Part shown: positions 40,635-57,574 of the stretch, piece after piece
How the letters are laid out: every line of letters begins with the position of its first letter
How positions within the stretch are numbered: the stretch's first letter is position 1
Origin: Pseudonocardia hierapolitana
GTDB taxonomy: Bacteria; Actinomycetota; Actinomycetes; Mycobacteriales; Pseudonocardiaceae
Direction of reading: 5' to 3'
Length of the DNA stretch: 64,000 nucleotides
Assembly (NCBI RefSeq): GCF_007994075.1
Contig: NZ_VIWU01000001.1
Span: forward strand, 1,364,001-1,428,000
Notes under the pieces: model-generated
What the model was told of the DNA's origin: nothing
Seen by the model: only the letters and a program-made list of their open reading frames with translations
Database searches by the model: none
Program-made: the position numbers and the translations under genes

Positions 40635-40802
40635 CTAGTGCTTCCCGCCGGAGGTTCGTCGGGGGTATCGGTGGATCCAGCTTCTCGCTGGGCGTGGCGG
40701 CGGACGGCCCTCGTACCGGGCGTACTCGGGCTGTTCGCCGCTGCGTCCAGCGTGGAGCTGGGCCGCCGAGACCCTTGGCGAACCTCCGGCGGGGAGCACT
40801 AG
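40635..40802. repeat. 168-bp multi-hairpin repeat element, copy A (MITE-like)
   Basis: The ends CTAGTGCTTCCCGCCGGAGG... and their inverted complement at the other side pair over 24 bases with one mismatch. Inside, CCAGC-TTCTC-GCTGG forms a small stem and other arms pair around GTACCGGGCGTAC. A second copy lies at 56792-56959; the two agree at 160 of 168 positions counted by eye. TA flanks both ends, compatible with TA target duplication as made by IS630/mariner-type transposases. It codes for no obvious protein and lies between genes. Confidence 0.85.
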
Positions 40803-56791: not shown

Positions 56792-56959
56792 CCAGTGCTT
56801 CCCGCCGGAGGTTCGTCGGGGGTATCGGGGGATCCAGCTTCTCGCTGGGCGTGGCGGCGGGCAGCCCTCGTACCGGGCGTACTCGGGCTGTTCGCCGCTG
56901 CGTCCAGCGGGGAGCTCGGCCGTCGAGACCCTTGGCGAACCTCCGGCGGGAAGCACTAG
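56792..56959. repeat. 168-bp multi-hairpin repeat element, copy B (MITE-like)
   Basis: Same length and structure as 40635-40802, eight differences by eye. The right end is CACTAG and the left is CCAGTG, so the left TA of copy A has become CA. The inverted ends GTGCTTCCCGCCGGAGGTTC pair without mismatch. It ends 9 bases before the GTG of the methyltransferase gene. Confidence 0.85.
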
Positions 56960-56968
56960 CCTTGCGGC

Positions 56969-57574
56969 GTGACGGCGTGGGTGGACACCGGCCGGTTCGT
57001 TCGCGAGTTCGTGCGCGACCCCCTGCACACGGCGTCGGTGACGCCGAGCTCGCGGGCTCTCGCGGCGGCGATGGTGCGGGCGCTCCCGACGGCCGGTGCA
57101 CCGGTCGTCGTCGAGCTCGGGCCGGGTACCGGGGCGTTCACGCGGGCGATCCAGGAACGCACCGGCGGGCGGGTACGGCACGTCGCCGTGGAGCTCAACG
57201 CCCGGTGGGCGCAGCTGCTGGCCGAGCGTCACCCCGAGGTCGACGTGGTGCAGGCCGACGCCCGTGAGCTGCCCCGCCTCCTCGCCGACCGCGCGGTCGC
57301 GGCCGTGGACGCCGTGGTGAGCGGGCTGCCGTGGGTGGCGTACACCCCCGGCCCCGACGGCCGCGGCCTGCACGCCGTGATCACCGAGGTGCTCGCACCG
57401 ACGGGAGTGTTCACGCAGTTCGGCTACACCTGGACGCGCTGGGCGCCGCCGGCGCGGCGCCAGCTCGCCGACCTGCGGACCCACTTCGCCGAGGTGGCGA
57501 CCAGCCGGACCGTGTGGCGCAACGTCCCGCCCGCGATCGTCCACGAGGCCCGCAGGCCCGTTCGCGTGACCTGA
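56969..57574 (+). CDS. Class I SAM methyltransferase (PmtA/KsgA-like)
   Basis: A 201-residue methyltransferase. The SAM site is VVVELGPGTGAFTRAIQERT (about residues 46-65), with an acidic end in HVAVELNARWAQLLAER and a VVQADARELPRLLAD loop. VDAVVSGLPWVAYTP resembles the catalytic loop of phospholipid N-methyltransferases and rRNA dimethylases (NLPY-type variant). A phospholipid methylase is the better guess by size. The GTG at 56969 has no clear ribosome site, because the repeat element ends just upstream. Confidence 0.8.
   Translation: MTAWVDTGRFVREFVRDPLHTASVTPSSRALAAAMVRALPTAGAPVVVELGPGTGAFTRAIQERTGGRVRHVAVELNARWAQLLAERHPEVDVVQADARELPRLLADRAVAAVDAVVSGLPWVAYTPGPDGRGLHAVITEVLAPTGVFTQFGYTWTRWAPPARRQLADLRTHFAEVATSRTVWRNVPPAIVHEARRPVRVT

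Follow-up and report, generated by a model that had tools for sequence, protein, structure and literature searches.

The window analysed here, a stretch of 64,000 nucleotides from the genome of Pseudonocardia hierapolitana (assembly GCF_007994075.1, contig NZ_VIWU01000001.1, positions 1,364,001 to 1,428,000), contains two non-coding copies of a 168-bp element. An initial annotation made from the letters alone had left two possibilities for this element, a non-autonomous element moved by a transposase of the IS630/mariner type or a conserved structured RNA, and the question is which of the two applies. The analysis indicates that it is both at once and not one or the other. We consider it likely that the element is a hairpin MITE which is moved in trans, is kept foldable on one strand and carries a core whose ends have been exchanged.

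Recounting of the two copies gave the same agreement of 160 of 168 positions that had been estimated by eye. The outer 24 bases of each copy form the inverted ends that had been described and are complementary at 23 of 24 positions. The TA reported at both borders of copy A lies within CTAG on either side (CTAG...CTAG). The 168 bp encode no transposase, and the motif strand of copy A is rich in G and T (G66 C54 A17 T31). The features of both copies are listed in Table 1. The edge of the core in copy A was placed where the alignments with Streptomyces elements end, and two covariance models, R1 and R3, were also used. This core hairpin is common to elements with IS630-type ends and elements with IS5-type ends. 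The apical loop CTCGTACCGGGCGTACTCGG shows 1 to 5 edits in the 16 of 39 aligned own-genome copies in which it is not exact, and a U.G pair adjoining the bulged A (columns 42/150) is likewise present in 39 of 39. Copy B ends 9 bp upstream of a predicted methyltransferase ORF that begins with GTG (Methyltransf_25; region 56792-56969), and may be part of its 5' region.

Table 1. Features of the two copies, in positions of the window, and IS630-family elements of the same genome, in positions of contig C1 of that genome (G000).
Feature	Position	Strand	Remark
Copy A	40635..40802	+	168-bp element; + is the best-folding strand (motif strand)
CTAG, left border of copy A	40635..40638	.	sister copies suggest a target duplication of TA or CTAG
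CTAG, right border of copy A	40799..40802	.	
Left terminal inverted repeat, copy A	40635..40658	+	23/24 complementary to the right one
Right terminal inverted repeat, copy A	40779..40802	-	
Core hairpin, copy A	40668..40771	+	extends about 52 nt to either side of the loop centre; edge inferred
Apical loop CTCGTACCGGGCGTACTCGG, copy A	40710..40729	+	exact in 23/39 aligned own-genome copies
Bulged A	40675..40675	+	column 41 of alignment A2; identical in 39/39 copies
Copy B	56792..56959	+	160/168 identical to copy A; between divergent predicted ORFs
Core hairpin, copy B	56825..56928	+	by alignment with copy A
CTAG, right border of copy B	56956..56959	.	left border of copy B is CCAG
IS630-family elements L133, L137, L138	G000:C1 3812501, 5308727, 6411827		1274-1276 bp

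A BLAST search of the 8.86-Mb single-contig own genome with copy A (E <= 0.001) returned 58 rows at no fewer than 40 distinct places; the best 40 of 161 first-look candidates were scored. Model R1 was built from 39 of these 40 copies, leaving out one with an internal deletion of 80 bp (L038), and found at least 47 matches in the same genome. Counting the 40 BLAST places and 6 further ones, the genome holds at least 46 copies, in line with the prediction that two copies in the window would mean many in the genome. With its short length, its many copies, its terminal inverted repeats and the lack of a transposase the element is a MITE. One copy (L016) resembles an older subfamily in its left part and is near identical to a young subfamily in its right part; it is perhaps a chimera of the two.

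Outside the own genome the distribution is patchy. Within the genus, R1 detected the element in 31 of 60 genomes (own genome counted) and not in the other 29; in the family 100 of 297 genomes and 24 of 46 genera matched (own genome again included). A core model built jointly from all taxa (R2) yielded only 23 pairs and was set aside, and R3, built from 20 Streptomyces cores alone, was used in its place. R3 recovers the P. hierapolitana copies with up to 84 bits; in the class it matched 61 of 394 genomes, belonging to 13 of 138 genera. In a sample of the whole phylum 8 of 396 genomes matched at E <= 1e-5, namely the own genome and seven others of the same class. A scan with the exact 20-base loop revealed at least 119 stretches, mainly in Pseudonocardia and Streptomyces and, among the matches listed, also in Amycolatopsis, Prauserella and Actinacidiphila. 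At least those in L172 (Nocardioides) and L214 appear to be chance hits within unrelated stretches. The window copy had no match in 50,697 phage records or among 72,556 plasmid records, and viral contigs contained no exact match to the loop. Two Streptomyces versions were found in 22 and 52 of the 72,556 plasmid records, and in the best 15 plasmid rows of each version 13 and 10, respectively, had no feature under the match in a gene table that is incomplete. A plasmid copy of the Streptomyces version that is itself unannotated (L327, NZ_CP108294.1, 52872-53053) shares 5 bases with the 3' end of wrbA. Rfam 15, the collection of named families used for comparison, gave 0 matches in the window at the gathering score, and the 9 and 2 matches at a loose threshold were all below gathering. 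No description of the element was found in the literature searched, with most subscription papers lying outside that search.

The insertion target was analysed with recent near-identical copies from three relatives (nine from G202, seven from G066 and four from G001). The left border of these 20 copies is CTAG in all cases and the right border in 19 (CTAA in L121), and the flanks are unrelated. For the comparison of filled and empty sites the joined flanks of two own-genome copies (L018 and L024) were searched in 60 genomes of the genus. Among the matches listed only the own genome was split at these junctions. Of 29 loci fetched, 23 span the L018 junction with length differences of -4 to +6 and 6 span the L024 junction (difference 0, in one case +23); none of them contains the element. 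The exact single CTAG is found at the junction of one of the 29 loci (L293, CCCA[CTAG]GACT), while CTAC, TCAG or another stop codon stands at the remaining junctions. Both tested copies thus have element-free sites in relatives, with a target-site duplication for the two copies and an exact single CTAG in one relative. Insertion took place at TA, preferably within CTAG, as in elements mobilised by IS630. Neither of the outcomes that would have spoken against the initial annotation, a lack of further copies or positions that are always filled, was encountered.

Genes around the 40 own-genome copies were predicted with a simple script based on codon usage. Predicted genes converge on 10 copies and diverge from 11, and 4 copies overlap a predicted gene. 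At 14 of the 40 copies, L018 and L024 among them, the terminal CTAG forms the exact end of a predicted gene, with TAG as the stop codon. Because CTAG is duplicated upon insertion, a gene with such a stop codon would stay intact. Relative to both neighbouring genes, the foldable strand is antisense in 16 of the 40 copies and sense in 3, which does not suit a hairpin acting in read-through RNA from host genes, as it would mostly lie on the wrong strand.

A transposase of the IS630 type with the same ends had been proposed as the mover, and this proposal held in part. The own genome holds four DDE_3 (PF13358) loci, three of which lie within IS630-type elements with CTAGTGC...GCACTAG ends (Table 1; ends CTAGTGCGTTGACCAC...GTGGTCAACGCACTAG); L133 carries the domains HTH_32, HTH_29 and DDE_3. 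The window subfamily shares only CTAGTGC with these ends, and no autonomous element with its exact ends (GTGCTTCCCGCCGGAGG) was found, the own genome having been searched with PF13358 only. Closer agreement was seen elsewhere: the end of an element from P. spinosispora (L242, GTGCGTTGACCACGAACGTTCGCCGG) is identical at 25 of 26 positions to one IS630-type end of the own genome. The end CTAGTGCTCTGGCCGGAAAGGTTCACCGG of the element in Streptomyces SPB162 is similar to that of an IS630-type element (L268, CTAGTGCTCTGACCGCATAGGTTCACCGG), in whose analysed frame only helix-turn-helix domains were found; DDE_3 is present in an element from S. meridianus with one such IS630-type end (L269). A 181-bp element of S. 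camponoticapitis (L265) has the 20-base end CTAGGGCGTGTCCGCAAAGT on both sides. This end is identical at 20 of 20 positions to the left and at 18 of 20 to the right end of L270 in the same genome, an 896-bp element of the IS5 family encoding a DDE_Tnp_1 (PF01609) protein.

A preference of IS630 for the TA in CTAG is given in the title of Tenzen and Ohtsubo 1991, as cited in PMC2170065, and ISY100, which is related to IS630, is described in PMC2170065 as moving by cut-and-paste with duplication of TA. Transposases of the IS630 family would excise the element and paste it in trans, duplicating the TA within CTAG. The non-autonomous IS630/mariner-type element of the initial annotation agrees with the CTAG target, the empty sites in relatives and the IS630-family elements in the genome. 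In Streptomyces and some other lineages the core is probably moved by a different transposase, since it lies there between ends that match the IS5 family. Mobilisation in trans by DDE transposases, as judged from target and ends, appears to be the best-supported part of the function.

The multi-hairpin shape that had been proposed was ruled out by folding. As RNA, the + strand of copy A with 2 flanking bases forms one long, near-continuous hairpin with bulges and a free energy of -159.7 kcal/mol, compared with -83.4 +/- 4.5 for 200 shuffled sequences (z -17.2) and only -121.8 kcal/mol for the - strand. Copy B gave a z of -14.8, and all 40 own-genome copies fold better in the same orientation. 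Folding as DNA preferred the same strand (-81.3 versus -64.5), so that energy cannot separate RNA from DNA.

The second possibility of the initial annotation, a conserved structure, was borne out on the level of a single strand. In the alignment of 39 own-genome copies 36 of 65 pairs have changed on both sides with pairing kept, and 96.2% of the cells are paired. None of 500 shuffles reached this value, and structures slid along the alignment pair at 40-46%. The covariation of the outer arms alone could be explained by both ends suiting one transposase. The Streptomyces core lies between unlike ends, however, and matching of ends cannot explain its compensatory changes: 19 of 39 pairs have changes on both sides, 94.7% of the cells are paired, and again 0 of 500 shuffles did as well. 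From the core alignments L035, L029, L169 and L240 were left out, as were L105 and L074, which have no loop match, and from alignment A5 also L176 and L157. The Streptomyces loci were chosen by the exact loop, and the invariance of the loop in alignments A4 and A5 is by construction and no evidence. Compensatory changes above controls, as expected of a structured RNA, were thus found in the own-genome copies and in the Streptomyces cores, and they would equally hold for a single DNA strand.

A stronger sign of selection on one strand came from the mispairs, because a decaying palindrome should yield G.T and A.C at similar numbers. Only the loop motif served to orient the copies; of 205 candidate places 128 were retained, and clustering at 80% identity gave 22 clusters; the pairing threshold treats G.T and A.C equally. 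In the core we counted 138 G.T, 27 A.C and 125 other mispairs, and in the ends 72, 11 and 27. By cluster, the majority was in favour of G.T in 21 to 0 cases for the core, with one tie, and in 18 to 2 for the ends, with two ties. No control could be obtained from other quasi-palindromes within the window. Rare substitutions turned Watson-Crick pairs into G.T in 30 cases, into A.C in 2 and into other mispairs in 14; the 15 young own-genome copies contributed 9, 1 and 5 to these numbers and the 13 older ones 21, 1 and 9. The element is thus kept foldable on one strand across core and ends, by compensatory changes and by G.U (G.T) pairs, and this suggests that the selected object is a single strand.

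The alignments also revealed that one core occurs between two kinds of ends. All 11 element pairs compared align through the loop. Seven of them are Streptomyces pairs of an element with IS630-type and one with IS5-type ends; five are 84-87% identical over 99-110 nt and the other two 77% over 107 nt and 80% over 145 nt. Six of the seven alignments end 44-56 nt from the loop centre. Relatives of 68 bp with IS5-type CTAG ends and no core exist in S. lateritius and S. camponoticapitis (L274, L275, L276, L279), and these, together with the internally deleted L038, indicate that the core is unnecessary for movement. The core of about 105 nt may be viewed as a passenger whose transposase ends would have been swapped. 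More tentatively, and at somewhat less than even chances, the core could be an independent mobile single-strand gene, likely of RNA, that captured IS630 and IS5 ends repeatedly and spread through the Actinomycetes. If this is true, the passenger outlives its transposon carriers.

The orientation of the element relative to replication was determined with fork directions derived from the located dnaA, keeping for each copy among the matches listed the higher-scoring strand. In eight genomes of the Pseudonocardiaceae, 164 of the 217 copies listed have their foldable strand running against the fork (two-sided binomial p 2e-14, with copies that are not independent events). The ratio of against to with is 37:9 in the own genome, 32:12 in G022, 45:16 in G256, 14:1 in G319 and 8:0 in G293, each with p < 0.01; the remaining genomes showed 7:1 (G157), 12:6 (G305) and 9:8 (G128). 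In the own genome it is 9:1 at convergent and 7:4 at divergent gene pairs, and the bias at convergent pairs cannot be explained by gene direction. The young copies L001-L016 run against the fork in 15 of 16 cases and the rest in 22 of 30. The idea of a polar sequence, in which the bias should grow toward the terminus, was rejected, since no gradient from ori was seen. Streptomyces does not clearly follow this bias: in SPB162 the sense is opposite, with 6:1 for seven loop-matched loci and 6:4 for ten end pairs of determinable direction, and in DHE7-1 the four loci show 3:1 in the Pseudonocardia sense. The bias reflects either replication-coupled insertion or rapid loss of wrongly oriented copies.

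As the form of the selected strand, RNA appears somewhat favoured, with a little better than even chances, because specific G.U pairs are themselves conserved (the U.G pair in the own-genome copies and, in the Streptomyces core, positions 20/97 in 19 of 20 sequences) and because G.U lets an RNA stay paired although the DNA that encodes it falls short of a perfect palindrome. Rather less probable is a hairpin of single-stranded DNA that forms at the replication fork and serves a strand-specific step coupled to replication, either as its substrate or as an intermediate. It would accommodate the orientation against the fork, significant in five of eight genomes, its persistence at convergent gene pairs and among the youngest copies, and the preference of DNA folding for the same strand. 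It fits poorly with the weak ratios in G128 and G305, the opposite sense in Streptomyces SPB162, the missing gradient with distance from ori, and with ends and a target that match DDE elements. Hairpins of the IS200/IS605 elements are substrates or intermediates in such a step, and REP and IS200/IS605 elements combine a strand-specific hairpin with an orientation bias relative to replication. In both, the foldable strand lies on the lagging-strand template and no target is duplicated. The biased genomes studied here place the poorly folding strand on that template, opposite to the IS200/IS605 rule. Membership of the element in either group was rejected on this orientation, for the eight genomes together, and on CTAG being present on both sides of the element compared with one in the empty site; unlike REP and IS200/IS605 the element has DDE-type inverted ends and CTAG borders.

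Three further explanations were considered. That the element is tolerated and kept as a transcription terminator or 3'-end insulator is improbable: the gene ends in the terminal CTAG of 14 of 40 copies and the overlap of the plasmid copy with wrbA would agree with it, but the choice of CTAG as target accounts for this position, no T run follows copy A or B, and only 10 of the 40 copies lie between convergent predicted genes, compared with 11 between divergent ones and 4 that overlap a gene. Strand-biased mutation, for example from C to T on one strand, could create G.T without selection, and the common orientation to replication in five of eight genomes (p < 0.01) would provide the asymmetry. 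We regard this as very unlikely, since the motif strand, rich in G and T, mostly lies opposite to the leading strand (flank GC skew +0.019, A-T skew -0.0205) and replication skew would push the opposite way. In addition, G.U pairs are present in the Streptomyces core as well, despite its mixed orientation, and the substitutions T>C, C>T, A>G and G>A were counted 6, 6, 6 and 5 times in the young subfamily; in the older subfamily C>T (21) outnumbers G>A (16). The least credible explanation is a plain decaying MITE whose pairing stems from its palindromic origin and the matching of inverted repeats, without selection on a single strand. A palindromic structure is natural for MITEs, and their terminal repeats co-vary to suit one transposase, yet this predicts neither the strand-specific excess of G.T over A.C nor compensatory changes in cores between different ends, and it does not predict that the bulged A and the U.G pair are shared by all 39 aligned own-genome copies. 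Several observations speak against our preferred explanation, the hairpin MITE moved in trans and kept foldable on one strand: the two of 22 clusters in which A.C exceeds G.T in the ends, the negative PF13358 search for an autonomous element with the exact ends of the window subfamily, the single intact CTAG among 29 junctions, the antisense position of the foldable strand relative to neighbouring genes (16 to 3), the same strand preference in DNA folding, and the core-less relatives.

Bacterial MITEs are usually viewed as transposon debris. The IS630-family insertion sequences of the host genome with CTAGTGC...GCACTAG ends differ from the element, which has no transposase in its 168 bp, and the IS5-family end of 20 nt common to L270 and L265 concerns other lineages and not the window element. 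On the best reading the element resembles RUP, Correia or ERIC as a hairpin MITE, with no described family shown for it. For ERIC no swapping of ends is known to us. ERIC (also IRU or RU-1) of enterobacteria, set beside the element by description, likewise has a stable stem-loop and TA termini; it differs in its enterobacterial host and in terminal repeats of 7 bp, and an orientation-dependent effect on transcripts is described for it (PMC2229807 and PMC3049150). Correia or NEMIS elements of Neisseria, also compared by description, share inverted ends (24-26 bp in Correia), TA borders and a long stem-loop, and passages in PMC2229807, PMC3049150 and PMC10969869 report that their transcripts are cut by RNase III. 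A word search in the main text of the last of these, a 2024 review, found no Streptomyces, Actinobacteria or IS630. RUP of Streptococcus pneumoniae (107 bp, ends of IS630-Spn1; features as given in PMC2229807 and PMC3049150) is likewise a MITE with IS630-like ends, a TA target and a tight fold. It differs in taxon and length, in that the core described here is common to elements with IS5-type ends, and in that strand-selected wobble was tested for the present element. Compared with these known hairpin MITEs, the unusual feature is, on the best reading, an interchangeable and strand-selected core. This stretch of about 105 nt has been preserved across families of Actinomycetes and is carried by the ends of two unrelated transposase families. 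It also retains its pairing on one strand, and some property of the single strand therefore appears to be under selection. Whether hairpin MITEs act through their own RNA or single-stranded DNA is an old question, which thus becomes, in laboratory strains of Streptomyces among others, directly testable.
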